Source: Granulicella aggregans
GTDB lineage: Bacteria > Acidobacteriota > Terriglobia > Terriglobales > Acidobacteriaceae
Assembly (NCBI RefSeq): GCF_014203275.1
Contig: NZ_JACHIP010000001.1
Span: 806,001 to 870,000, forward strand
Direction: 5' to 3'
DNA length: 64,000 bases
Shown one piece after another: positions 14,634 to 21,627 of the stretch. The first letter of the stretch is position 1. The number at the start of each line of letters is the position of its first letter. The translations under genes and the position numbers were made by a program. The notes under the pieces were generated by a model, which saw nothing but the letters and a program-made list of their open reading frames with translations, was not told the DNA's origin and made no database searches.

Positions 14634-16577
14634 CTAACGAGGCGTCGCTAGTCCGCTCTCGTTTTGATCCTCGCTAAACGAGGTCTCCATCTCAGCGTGC
14701 ACGACGCAGTTACGTCCACTGTTCTTGGCCCTGTAGAGGGCTGCATCGACAGCACGAATTACCGTCTCGGCATCGTCATGGGATGAAAGAACCGAGGCCA
14801 CGCCAAAGCTCGCGGTTACCTGCAGCAACGTGTCGCCATCCCAAATGTGCGCCGATTGCACGGCCGCCCGCAGTTGTTCGCCACGGACGAGCGCACTTTC
14901 TATCTCGCAATTTGGCAGGATAAGTAGAAACTCTTCGCCGCCGTACCGTCCCACGCAGTCATAGGGACGAAGAGTGCGCATAAAGACTGTGCCGATCTCC
15001 TTCAGAACCAGGTCGCCTGCCAGGTGGCCAAAGGTATCGTTGACCTTCTTGAAATGATCGACATCGGCGATTATCACGCTCAGCGGGGTCCCATCGCGAA
15101 GAGAGCGGACCATCTCTTCACCCAACCGTTCGACAATGACGCGGTGATTCAACAGACCGGTCAAACCATCGTGCTCCGCGTGATGACGCATGCGGTTGCT
15201 TTCGTGCAGAAGTTCCAACTTCTCCCGTTCCAGAACGTCCTGGCGGAGTTGGTCCTCGCGAACGCTGTTATAGGCCGCGTAAACAATTGCGATAAGCAGA
15301 AGTGTTCCAGCGAGCGTGCCCAGCGATATACCATTGCCATCGACATAAAAGAGCGGCAAATCAATCTTGTCCGCGATGGGCCAACCCGTGAACTGACGGC
15401 CTTGCTTCACTGTGTCGGTGAAGAAGAGCATCATCTCGTCGAGAAATGCGAGGACGGCCACCAGCCAGCGCGCCGAATCAAACCGCTTGCGCCGCAAAAG
15501 CGCATAGCCCACCAGTGCCAGCGGAAAAGCTTCAAACGGGATAGTGAAAAACGTCAATAACGCATCGGATGCCTGGGCAAGCGCGGTCCATTGCGGATTT
15601 AAACTGAGCGCAACCATCGCTCCATCCGCCACTTCAAAGACGGTGTAGATGCAAGCAAGAGTCTGCGTGACGCGGCAAATGACACGGTTCTCATGGAGGG
15701 AGAGAAGCCAGAGAAGAAGAAACCAGAGCGATATGTCCTGCAATGCATGCAGGGGTTGTGCAGCTCCCATGGCGAGAGGATAAGGTAATCCGAGGTGAGC
15801 ATTCAGCAGCATCAGAATCGCAGGTTGAACAATGGCAAAGCCTGCCGTCCAGAACAAGACCCATCGTCTACGTGCTTGCAACCAGATAAGAAAGCTTAGC
15901 AACGCGATTACGGCGCAAAGCAGATTAGCGCCGAAATGGAGTTGCCGGCTTCGCAGCCACCGATACTCATACGCGGCCTTGGCAGTCGCAATGGCATCGG
16001 GGCTTCCGATCAGTGGTGCACCATCAAACCCGCCACGCTCGCCGGAATCATCGGAGAGCAAGGGGCGTCTCCATACACGCACAGCCAAGACGCCCTGCTG
16101 CACGCGGCCAAGTTCAAAGGTCTGCATCGGCTGCGAGATGTACCAAAGGGGGCGGGGTGGCAGCCTGCCATTGCGCCCGACGAGCGAACCGTTCCAATAG
16201 ATCTCGTACGAATCGTGCATCTTCGGCACTAGAAGTGAAATCTCCTGAGCCATGCCGGGAGCCTGGACGAGAGCGATAGAACACCGGTACCAGGCCATGC
16301 CTGTGAGCCGCGCATGCCCCTGATTGCCCCACGGCCGGTCTGCGCTCAGCTGCTCCCACGCAGAGCTATCGAATGCGGGGCTCGCCCACGCTGTATCGTC
16401 TCCAGGGTGAAATTGCCATGTGCCGTTAAGCGTGAACGTTCCCTCTCCGAGCTCTTTGATCACGATAGGAGAGGTCGCCGTACTCTTGATGCTTGCGGGC
16501 GTCGCATGTGCCGAGCAGGAGAAGGCAAGCAGAACTATTGCAACGATGCGGTGCAGGGCAAAATGGCCGGAGGGCAT
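14634..16577 (-). CDS. 7TM-type diguanylate cyclase (GGDEF)
   Basis: 647 residues. A signal peptide precedes an extracytoplasmic jelly-roll-like sensor (about 40-190; TFTLNGTWQFHPGD ... SYEIYWNGSLVGRNG) related to the 7TMR-DISMED2 / beta-galactosidase-like fold. Seven membrane helices follow, then a coiled linker (EDQLRQDVLEREKLELLHESNRMRHHAEHD) and a GGDEF domain. The catalytic site is intact: RYGGEEFLLIL. The product-inhibition I-site R-x-x-D is present as RPYD five residues before GGEEF. It should make cyclic di-GMP in response to an extracellular, possibly sugar-like, signal. With flagellar genes elsewhere in the window, control of motility versus attachment is plausible but unproven. Confidence 0.9.
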   Translation of the reverse strand: MPSGHFALHRIVAIVLLAFSCSAHATPASIKSTATSPIVIKELGEGTFTLNGTWQFHPGDDTAWASPAFDSSAWEQLSADRPWGNQGHARLTGMAWYRCSIALVQAPGMAQEISLLVPKMHDSYEIYWNGSLVGRNGRLPPRPLWYISQPMQTFELGRVQQGVLAVRVWRRPLLSDDSGERGGFDGAPLIGSPDAIATAKAAYEYRWLRSRQLHFGANLLCAVIALLSFLIWLQARRRWVLFWTAGFAIVQPAILMLLNAHLGLPYPLAMGAAQPLHALQDISLWFLLLWLLSLHENRVICRVTQTLACIYTVFEVADGAMVALSLNPQWTALAQASDALLTFFTIPFEAFPLALVGYALLRRKRFDSARWLVAVLAFLDEMMLFFTDTVKQGRQFTGWPIADKIDLPLFYVDGNGISLGTLAGTLLLIAIVYAAYNSVREDQLRQDVLEREKLELLHESNRMRHHAEHDGLTGLLNHRVIVERLGEEMVRSLRDGTPLSVIIADVDHFKKVNDTFGHLAGDLVLKEIGTVFMRTLRPYDCVGRYGGEEFLLILPNCEIESALVRGEQLRAAVQSAHIWDGDTLLQVTASFGVASVLSSHDDAETVIRAVDAALYRAKNSGRNCVVHAEMETSFSEDQNESGLATPR

Positions 16578-17990: not shown

Positions 17991-19115
17991 CTAATCGCCC
18001 GCCATCAGCAGGTCGCCACTCTCCTGCTCCACCTTCGCAGGCCACCACAACTGAAAACTAGTCCCTCTCCCGACAGCCGAATCCACCTTCACCTCACCAT
18101 GATGCTTGTCCATGAGGTGCTTCACCGTCCACAATCCAATCCCGTTGCCCTTGTTCCCTTTGGTCGACATACCGAAGCTGAATAGGTTCCGCATTATCTC
18201 CGGGTCGATCCCCGGACCGGTATCGCTCACTGTCACCTGCACGCCGTCTTCTTCGCCAGCTACTTGCACCAATACCCTCGACCCACGCCCACCCGCCGCC
18301 TCACACGCGTTACGAATGATGTTGAGAAGGATCTGGCGAATCTCCCCCGGAAAAGCCTCAACCACGCAGTTGCCGGAGATCTCCACTTGGAAGTCCAGGC
18401 CTTTTTCGCGAATCAGCGGGTTCAACAGGAAGCGGACCGATTCGAGCGCCAGTGCCATATCGATCTCTTCTCTTCTCTTTGTCTCGCGCATGAAGGAAAG
18501 TGTCGAATCAGAGATCGCTAGTACCCTCGCCGCCTCTTCAGTCGTAGTGAGCGCGAGCGCTGCAATATCTGGCGAGATCCCTTCGGTATGTTGAATCAAA
18601 AATTGCAGGTTCTGGATGGCCTCAAGCGGCCCGCGTATCTCGTGGCTCACCGCTGCGGAGATACGGCTCCACTCCTCAAGCTTCTGTGCCGAGATCAGGC
18701 TCTCCTGCAACTGGAGCCGCTCTGCCTCTACGTTCTGAAGCCGGGCACTGTAGTCGTTGACACCGAAGCCGATTTGGCCCGCACGCCGGATTAGCATGAT
18801 CGCCACATACGCCGAAAGAACGGCAGTTAGTACGTTCGTCCACGCATCCACCCAGAATATCGGCGTCCAGGTCGTAATCACCTCCAGCAGGTGCGTAGAC
18901 CCGCAGGCCACGATGAATAGCGCGAAGCCTACAAGGAAGTATGCCCAGTCGCGCGCAATCACTTTCCCGGTTCGCCTGACCAGGAATAACAAGGTGAGAC
19001 ATATGCTCAGGTAGCTCAGGAAGGTGATCGCGTTCGTCACGACCATCGTCCATATCAGTCGTGGCGCGGCAGCCCAGCAAACGGCGTGAGGCATCAAGGC
19101 AACGGGATCCAGCAT
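17991..19115 (-). CDS. sensor histidine kinase with ethylene-receptor-like membrane domain
   Basis: 374 residues. Three membrane helices (about 20-46, 57-79, 88-112) match the ethylene-binding domain of plant ETR1 and cyanobacterial homologues. FIVACGSTHLLEV keeps the Cu(I)-ligating Cys (C71) and His (H75), and a Tyr corresponding to ETR1 Y32 is Y35. The position of ETR1 Asp25 is Asn28. A coiled segment leads to a histidine kinase: H-box SAAVSHEIRGPLEAI, N-box NIIRNACEAA, G-boxes DTGPGID and GNGIGLW. No GAF or receiver domain is present and no response regulator is adjacent. The neighbour upstream is a CopA-type Cu ATPase, so copper sensing is as likely as ethylene sensing. Confidence 0.85.
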   Translation of the reverse strand: MLDPVALMPHAVCWAAAPRLIWTMVVTNAITFLSYLSICLTLLFLVRRTGKVIARDWAYFLVGFALFIVACGSTHLLEVITTWTPIFWVDAWTNVLTAVLSAYVAIMLIRRAGQIGFGVNDYSARLQNVEAERLQLQESLISAQKLEEWSRISAAVSHEIRGPLEAIQNLQFLIQHTEGISPDIAALALTTTEEAARVLAISDSTLSFMRETKRREEIDMALALESVRFLLNPLIREKGLDFQVEISGNCVVEAFPGEIRQILLNIIRNACEAAGGRGSRVLVQVAGEEDGVQVTVSDTGPGIDPEIMRNLFSFGMSTKGNKGNGIGLWTVKHLMDKHHGEVKVDSAVGRGTSFQLWWPAKVEQESGDLLMAGD

Positions 19116-19308
19116 GGCTACATTCCAGTCTTTGGTTAGCTACAGAGAGCAGCAAGCCTGCGAATATCCGCGCTCAGTCATGCTCTCTCAGTCAACTCCC
19201 CAAAACAGTTTCGAGCAACTTCAGCCGTATTTCAGCTTACTCGTTCATACTTCCTAAGACAAAGCATCTGCTGCGGTACACATCGGTCGCAACGTCGTCC
19301 GACCGCCG

Positions 19309-21627
19309 TCAGATCCGAGTCGAGCGCAGCCGCAGCGAGTTGGCAATCACCGAGACCGAACTGAAGCTCATCGCCGCCGCTGAGATCATCGGACTAAGGA
19401 GAACGCCGAAGAAAGGAAACAACACCCCACCAGCAATCGGCACACCTATCGCGTTGTAAAAAAAGGCGAAGAAAAGATTCTGCCGGATATTCCGCATCGT
19501 CGCCTGGCTGAGTTCATGCGCCTTCGCGACCCCGCGCAGGTCGCCACGCACCAGCGTGATTCCGCCCGCCTCCATCGCAACGTCCGTGCCTGTGCCCATC
19601 GCAACGCCTACGTTCGCCTGCGCCAGCGCCGGAGCATCATTCACTCCGTCGCCCGCCATCGCAACGATCCGACCCTCCGCCTGAAGACGCTTCACCAAGT
19701 CAGCCTTCTGCTGCGGTAGAACGTCAGCCTCGAAGTCGATTCCCAGCCTGCCTGCGACCGCAGCGGCCGTAATGCGGTTGTCGCCGGTCACCATGATGAC
19801 CTTAATCCCCTTGCTCAAGAGTTGCGCCAGAGCCTCTTCTGTCGTCGCCTTGATCGGGTCGGCAACTGCTATCAGTCCGGCCAAAGTGCTATCAACTGCG
19901 ACATACATCACCGTCTGCCCTTCACGCTGCAGAGCCTCGGCCCGATCGCGCAATCCTTCAACGGATGTGCCCGATTTCACAATGCCCGCAGCATTCGCCA
20001 CGGTCACGCCTCTTCCCTGCACCATACCGGAGATGCCTGTCCCGGTCGCAGACTGAAAGGCCTCAACCGCTGCCATCTCCAACCCGCGATCACGAGCCGC
20101 CGCGATCACTGCCGCAGCTAGCGGATGTTCGCTAGCCTTCTCCAGGCTCGCCGCCAACCGAAGAACCTCGGTCTCCTCGAATCCCTCCGCCGCCACAACC
20201 ACAGTGACCTTCGGCTTGCCCTCGGTCAGCGTGCCAGTCTTGTCGACCACCAGCGTGTCGACCTTCTCCATCGTCTCGAGCGCCTCGGCGTTGCGAAACA
20301 GGATGCCCTCGTGCGCTCCCCGGCCCGTGCCCACCATAATCGCCATCGGCGTCGCGAGTCCCAGCGCACAGGGACAAGCAATGATCAGCACAGCAACAGC
20401 ATTCACCAGCGCATGCGCATACTGCGGCGCAGGCCCATAGAACGCCCATGCAACGAACGTCGCAACAGCGGCCAGCAGCACCGCCGGCACAAAGTACCCA
20501 GCCACTCGGTCCGCCAGCCGCTGGATCGGCGCGCGCGTCCGCTGCGCCTCGCTCACCATCTTCACAATCTGCGCCAACAGCGTGTCGGAGCCAACGCGCT
20601 CCGTTCGCATCGTGAACGTGCCTGTCCCGTTGATCGTGCCGCCTATTACCTTCGCATCTTTCTCCTTCTCGACAGAGATCGGCTCGCCGCTGACCATCGA
20701 CTCATCGACCGAACTTGCCCCATCGACCACGACGCCGTCCGTGGGCACTCGCTCGCCCGGTCTGACGCGCAAGCGGTCACCCACATGCACCTCGGCGAGA
20801 TCGACATCGTGCTCGCTTCCATCAGTTGCAACCCGCCGTGCCGTCTTGGGAGTGAGGCCGAGCAGCGCCTTGATCGCCGATCCTGTCTGGCTCCGCGCCC
20901 TCAACTCCAGCACCTGCCCCAGCAACACCAGCACGGTGATCACCGCCGCCGCCTCGAAGTACAGCCCCACCTTTCCATCCGGCATGCGGAACGATGCGGG
21001 AACGGCACCCGGCGCGGCCACAGCCACAACGCTGTATAGATACGCCGCGCCTGAGCCAATCGCGATGAGCGTGAACATGTTTAGACTGCGGTTGACGATC
21101 GAAGCCCATCCCCGTTGAAAGAACGGCCACCCACCCCACAGAACAACTGGAGTCGCAATGGCAAACTCGAACCATCCCAACCCGCCACCCAGAAGATGCT
21201 GCAATGGCTGCCCCGGCATCAGTTCCGACACCATGATCGCGAGCAGCGGCAGCGTAAGCGCCACGCCTGTCCAGAACCTCCGCGTCATGCTCTCCAACTC
21301 CGGATTCGCCTCATCGAGCGTGACGGTCATCGGCTCCAGCGCCATCCCGCACTTCGGACACGCCCCCGGCTGGTCGCGAACGATCTCCGGATCCATCGGG
21401 CACGTGTACTTCATCCCCGGTGCAGCCTGAATGGGAGCCTCGGGCGCGGGCTTCGGCTGCAGGTACTTCATCGGATCGGCACTGAACTTAGCCGCGCAGC
21501 CTTTCCCGCAGAAGTAGAAGCTCTCGCCCTCAAACTCGATCGTGGCTGCCGCCTTAGCCGGGTCAACCTTCATGCCACAAACGGGATCGATCGCAACCAC
21601 AGCCGGATCTATCAAACTGGTCGTCAT
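19309..21627 (-). CDS. copA: Cu(+)-exporting P1B-type ATPase
   Basis: 772 residues. The N-terminus has a YHS domain ([11 protein letters not shown], then [12 protein letters not shown]) and a heavy-metal-binding CxxM/CxxC segment ([10 protein letters not shown] ... [10 protein letters not shown]) instead of classic HMA domains. The catalytic core is intact: membrane CPC motif (IIACPCALG), phosphorylation site [19 protein letters not shown], and [13 protein letters not shown] with this N-terminus points to Cu(I)/Ag(I) export. An AAGG box precedes the ATG by five bases. The 193 bp after its stop contain no recognised gene. No CsoR or CueR regulator is visible nearby; the adjacent kinase with a Cu-type site could be the sensor. 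Confidence 0.93.

Follow-up and report, generated by a model that had tools for sequence, protein, structure and literature searches.

Acidobacteriaceae sensor kinases with a possible second state of the ETR1-type copper site

The window (the whole 64,000-nucleotide stretch of DNA analysed) carries a gene for a sensor histidine kinase and, upstream of it, a gene for a copper-transporting ATPase, copA (Table 1). The kinase sequence matched the Pfam family ETR1_N (PF25487) over residues 20 to 112 (78.6 bits; cut-off, 27; E value, 4.5e-22), which makes its sensor a member of that domain family, and matched HATPase_c over residues 258 to 360. Its layout is thus an N-terminal ETR1-type membrane domain, a histidine-bearing helix region, and an ATPase domain; no Pfam match to a PAS, GAF, HAMP, or receiver domain was found in it. 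The same family search gave no PF25487 match in any of 14 control genomes. The kinase is apparently intact, and no response regulator gene adjoins it. Two genes past the kinase lies a gene for a GGDEF diguanylate cyclase (profile match; window positions 14634-16577, minus strand), the long N-terminal region of which looked membrane spanning by eye.

The CopA sequence passed the Cu-ATPase model TIGR01511 with 597.6 bits (cut-off, 397) and was also over the cut-off of TIGR01525. Its CPC motif (IACPCALG), taken together with the Cu-ATPase profile, assigns it to the Cu(I) P1B ATPases, and it turned out to be the sole match over the Cu-ATPase cut-off in its genome. A simple scan of the gap between the two genes, limited to the sigma-70 type, found neither a sigma-70-like promoter nor a minus-strand terminator; compared by eye with a congener, the gap was poorly conserved except right before the kinase start. 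The first-pass annotation had described this locus as an ethylene-receptor-like histidine kinase next to a Cu(I) exporter, and the profile matches agree with both identifications.

Table 1. Position and basis of the features at the kinase-copA locus
Feature	Position in window	Strand	Basis or remark
Cu(I)-type P1B ATPase (CopA), 772 aa, with N-terminal YHS and heavy-metal-binding domains	19309..21627	(-)	Profile matches
copA-kinase gap, 193 bases	19116..19308	(-)	copA upstream of kinase, same strand
Sensor histidine kinase, 374 aa	17991..19115	(-)	ORF; PF25487 and HATPase_c profile matches
ETR1-type sensor domain, residues 1-119	18759..19115	(-)	Alignment, AlphaFold2 helices, codon positions
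HxxC, kinase residues H10 to C13 (PHAVC in window kinase)	19077-19088		
Sensor-domain marks			H10 and C13, N-terminal segment; N28, Y35, and C39, helix 1; C71 and H75, helix 2; N94, helix 3

Ethylene binding in ETR1 requires seven residues: D25, Y32, I35, P36, I62, C65, and H69. The accessible text of PMC6586836 names I35, P36, I62, C65, and H69 as binding residues, and that of PMC11819568 names D25 and C65. In the window kinase, the Cu(I) ligands C65 and H69 of ETR1 correspond to C71 and H75, and Y32, I35, and I62 correspond to Y35, I38, and I68, so that five of the seven residues are kept. The D25 position is occupied by N28 and the P36 position by C39; in addition, K91, the partner of D25, is replaced by N94. 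C71, H75, Y35, and N28 had been pointed out before, and we found them where they had been placed, both at the codon level and by alignment with C75, H79, Y42, and D35, respectively, of AzoEtr1 from Azospirillum brasilense; the departures at the P36 and K91 positions had not been mentioned. As far as the excerpts of PMC13012798 and PMC11819568 go, D25 and K91 are held to be the residues through which Cu-bound ethylene acts on the output of ETR1. An ETR1 variant with D25N is reported to be a working receptor with an about 100-fold lower affinity for ethylene (Aman 2025, as cited in part of PMC13012798), and natural variants are reported to exist (same excerpt of PMC13012798).

We call the subfamily with N28 the N-type, a class defined by this asparagine plus both Cu ligands. 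Pooling all loci gave 22 distinct N-type sequences. In a domain tree of 150 rows, all 22 fell on one branch (support, 100/100), with N at ETR1 position 25 in every member on the tree, and the state at this position changed once, against a mean of 21.0 changes after shuffling; the tree was built from only 102 columns, and its bootstrap was called unsettled by the program. In a scan of genome contigs, which leans towards the query and covered the best 80 of 375 matches, 14 loci were 66 to 82% identical to the query and the other 66 at most 45%, with nothing between. All 22 N-type sequences have both Cu ligands by definition of the class, and it is this identity gap that gives independent evidence of discreteness. 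Across an alignment of 14 relatives, N28, Y35, C71, H75, H10, and C13 were invariant and C39 and N94 were present in at least 90% of the sequences; the kinase motifs H158, N269, D298, and GNGxGLW were conserved as well.

The N-type sequences come either from genomes that belong to the same family as the window or from records that carry the names Acidobacteriaceae, Acidobacteria, Granulicella, Occallatibacter, or Bryocella. The N-type is therefore placed as a discrete Acidobacteriaceae subfamily of ETR1-type sensor kinases. PF25487 was matched in 18 of 396 genomes of a phylum sample and in 79 of 300 of a family sample, and an N-type kinase was present in 5 of the 62 genomes of the window's genus. 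Plasmid matches (18 records) were all below 60% identity. Horizontal transfer to Rhodanobacteraceae, which the titles of two records (L078 and L084) could suggest, was unsupported, their counterparts (G691:C43 and G678:C46) being placed in the window's genus. The two records, contigs of metagenome-assembled genomes with 40,502 and 8,747 bases, are probably mislabelled.

The window genome itself encodes four ETR1_N proteins, two of which, the window kinase and L002/L060, are of the N-type, with 77% identity in the sensor domain. The other two have lost one Cu ligand (L003, with PAS-like repeats by eye) or both (L004, with a GGDEF motif by eye). Proteins with ETR1_N that lack one or both ligands in the window's genus are L003, L004, L025, L028, L165, L166, L168, and L177, and in these the receptor fold has been reused without the full Cu site. 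Close to the second N-type kinase of the genome lie a receiver gene and a gene for a hybrid kinase; the other N-type loci that were searched yielded no relative of this receiver. The receiver-domain protein has 281 residues (L060:11552-12394, on G000:C18) and lies near transposase-like frames, as seen by eye. Several full or partial copies of it, about 65 to 96% identical and some of them broken, occur on contigs C10, C3, C27, C42, C9, and C18.

We then counted the residues at the altered positions in 149 distinct domain sequences, 3 of 152 distinct segments having been dropped because they were shorter than 75 residues. Both Cu ligands were kept in 132 sequences, while 17 lacked one or both. 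Among the 132, ETR1 positions 25 and 91 were D-K in 109, N-N in 21, N-S in 1, and D-S in 1, the N-type sequences accounting for the N-N (21 of 22) and N-S (1 of 22) combinations. The pair thus appears, from these residue patterns, to have been exchanged as a unit and once; since the N-type is one clade, the exchange is a single event and offers no statistical test of covariation. Position 36 is looser: in the D-K set (n = 109) it was P in 88 sequences, S in 10, F in 6, T in 2, A in 2, and G in 1, so that proline was absent from 21. In the N-type it was C in 20 of 22, S in 1, and A in 1, and the idea of Cys39 as a fixed third ligand is weakened by the last two members.

The N-terminal HxxC occurred in all 22 N-type sequences and in 108 of 109 D-K sequences with both ligands, and it was absent from 16 of the 17 sequences without one or both Cu ligands. 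It was also absent from L017, the sole D-S sequence with both ligands. By its distribution, HxxC behaves like a part of the copper apparatus, perhaps in loading or in dimer bonding. We know of no report of HxxC tracking the Cu ligands.

The sensor was predicted by AlphaFold2, when modelled alone, to form three helices (residues 18-48, 55-81, and 87-121) with a mean pLDDT of 74.3; the full-length kinase gave 67.8, which is too weak for the geometry of the site. Neither the sensor alone nor a 32-row profile matched a solved structure at an E value of 1. Comparison of the window with the congener G359 by our own Nei-Gojobori script gave dN/dS values of 0.030 for the sensor, 0.10 for the kinase part, and 0.11 for copA, at a synonymous divergence of 0.6 to 0.9. 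Purifying selection is thus strong, and the sensor is more constrained than the kinase part, which indicates that the domain is probably functional. Decay of the site was rejected on the strength of the sensor value together with the invariance of N28, C71, and H75 in the 14-row alignment; the residue changes, being clade-wide, resemble a functional variant.

The first-pass annotation had proposed, as one of two readings, that the ATPase supplies the kinase with copper as RAN1 supplies ETR1, and had named a lack of conserved linkage to copA in related genomes as grounds for refutation. We searched the ORFs of each locus with CopA by phmmer and repeated the search by tblastn over the 22 N-type and 66 other loci (E value, 1e-5). 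By either method, copA was found near 2 of the 22 N-type kinases, that of the window and that of G359, a single congeneric pair, and in both species it was directly upstream of the kinase. Among the 16 N-type loci flanked by 9.6 kb or more on each side, the figure was again two; the other six have at least one flank below 9.6 kb, and three of them (L068, L069, and L084) have less than 2 kb upstream and so count for little among the 20 loci without copA. None of the 66 other ETR1_N loci, drawn from the best 80 of 375 matches and including 25 with a flank below 8 kb, had copA nearby, and the phmmer search gave no Cu ATPase at any of these 80 contig-scan loci.

A Cu ATPase over the cut-off was present in 56 of the 62 genomes of the window's genus, compared with 5 of 62 for the kinase, and in the other three N-type genomes of the genus it was on a different contig. 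With the linkage not conserved and Cu ATPases nearly universal in the genus without the kinase, a RAN1-like pairing is unsupported, and a dedicated Cu supply as a general rule was rejected, no Cu ATPase having been found near 20 of the 22 clade members. No other conserved neighbour of the clade emerged either: kinases aside, the clustered gene families were common to at most four loci, reflecting local synteny of subgroups. Two loci (L065 and L066), in which a longer spurious ORF masked the kinase, were left out of the clustering and read by eye, as were eight loci added later.

The adjacency in the window and G359 is probably shared by descent. By our own arithmetic, 20 kb of a 5-Mb genome amounts to 0.4% per copA copy, or about 0.1 linkages expected among some 20 independent loci, so one ancestral event is weak evidence of a link, though direct adjacency is rarer. 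Its survival in two species at the synonymous divergence given above leaves room for some selection or a local functional link. In 10 further Cu-ATPase regions of the genus, no ETR1-type kinase was seen by eye within three genes on each side. One of them, in G370 (L197:6488-9289), has a CsoR-like gene directly after the Cu ATPase (by eye), so that a conventional repressor can be what regulates copper genes in this genus.

The reading that we favour, at what we judge close to an even chance, is that of a receptor-type kinase loaded with Cu(I), whose sensing of ethylene or another olefin as a putative ligand is weaker or differently tuned and which has no dedicated Cu pump. Cu(I) would be held by C71 and H75 within the core of the membrane and would bind a small pi-ligand, which could be ethylene at a soil-level instead of a hormone-level concentration, or another small olefin, an alkyne, or CO. 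Ligand binding would shift helix 3, which runs into the helix with the phospho-acceptor H158, and the shift could alter autophosphorylation and the passing of the phosphate to an unlinked response regulator. The copper would come from general Cu handling, the adjoining copA being a neighbour peculiar to this lineage and no partner dedicated to the family. What counts against this reading is that P36 and D25 are both among the seven residues required in ETR1, so the protein may have ceased to bind ethylene at all.

Somewhat more doubtfully, we suggest that in the Acidobacteriaceae the receptor site acquired a second state, in which the D-K salt-bridge pair became N-N as a unit and a cysteine took the place of the helix-1 proline beside the Cu ligands. 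Such a site would serve a Cu(I) membrane sensor that responds, instead of to hormone-level ethylene, to some other small molecule or to Cu(I) as such.

The first-pass annotation had also considered a copper sensor built on the receptor fold, which we now think rather unlikely. Occupancy by Cu(I) would itself be the signal, the loss of the D-K pair would remove the coupling to a ligand, Cys39 would add a ligand, and filling with metal would switch the kinase, in this lineage beside its target copA. C71 and H75 in all 22 N-type sequences suit this idea, as do C39 in 20 of them, at a spacing (7 and 11 residues) that may put N28, Y35, and C39 on one face of helix 1, and copA directly upstream in two species. 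Even so, no Cu ATPase was found near the other 20 loci, 14 of which are flanked by 9.6 kb or more on each side, position 39 is not always cysteine, and none of the 10 further regions around Cu ATPases in the genus has such a kinase, one having the CsoR-like gene instead (by eye). The copper two-component sensors CusS and CopS sit with copper genes. Copper sensing is a possible reading that gains little from gene context, since the two genes adjoin in no more than two species.

About as unlikely in our estimate is a domain that has given up sensing a Cu-bound gas and either anchors the protein in the membrane or responds to something else, such as redox or membrane state, its residues being kept for folding or dimerisation. 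The persistence of several ETR1_N proteins of the window's genus after loss of one or both Cu ligands is consistent with such a role; the N-type, however, keeps both ligands together with the HxxC that nearly all sequences short of one or both Cu ligands lack, and its sensor is more constrained than its kinase part.

A true high-affinity ethylene receptor fed by its own CopA, as a bacterial parallel to RAN1 and ETR1, is very improbable: five of the seven ETR1 binding residues are kept and CopA, by known topologies, should pump towards the expected side of the receptor N terminus, but D25N and P36C fall on required positions with K91N in addition, D25N alone is reported to cost about 100-fold in affinity (PMC13012798, in part), and the copA linkage is not conserved. 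Of the earlier proposal of a bacterial ethylene receptor, the Cu(I) site thus stands, both ligands being kept, whereas a receptor in the strict sense is weakened by these three changes.

Returning to the favoured Cu(I)-loaded kinase, a natural clade in which the Cu ligands are kept, exactly the D-K pair is exchanged, and constraint is strong is a ready experiment on the role of that pair. It also cautions that not every bacterial ETR1_N kinase is an ethylene receptor and that a single neighbouring gene should not be read as a pathway. We found no report of an ethylene receptor in Acidobacteria or of D25N paired with an ethylene receptor, which leaves its absence from print unproven. Among the matches listed, the literature on Granulicella and ethylene held no receptor work by title, and that pairing ethylene receptors with Cu-ATPase gene clusters held nothing on point.

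Compared with known systems, the window CopA is like the CopA-type P1B-1 ATPases in exceeding the cut-offs of TIGR01511 and TIGR01525 and in having CPC, and unlike them in that its N terminus consists of YHS and heavy-metal-binding domains, with no HMA domain matched. The kinase resembles the CusS/CopS-type sensors as a membrane histidine kinase adjoining a copper gene in two species, but its sensor is ETR1_N, and the cztS_silS_copS model matched the kinase half only (residues 149-356; 68 bits against a cut-off of 292.55). With Arabidopsis ETR1 and RAN1 the locus shares the Cu(I) ligand pair, the domain family, and a Cu ATPase in the same genome; unlike ETR1, the kinase is changed at D25, P36, and K91 and has no GAF or receiver domain matched, and copA is not a conserved neighbour. 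The kinase can also be compared with AzoEtr1 of A. brasilense, a proven bacterial receptor with roles for D35, C75, H79, and K98 (PMC11819568, accessible part). AzoEtr1 has a PAS domain and a nearby response regulator gene (same part of PMC11819568), whereas in the window kinase no PAS domain was matched and no regulator gene adjoins. The two proteins have in common an ETR1-type membrane domain with Cys-x3-His, the N-terminal PHxxC, and the tyrosine, followed by a histidine kinase; they differ in that AzoEtr1 has D35, P46, and K98 where the window kinase has N28, C39, and N94.
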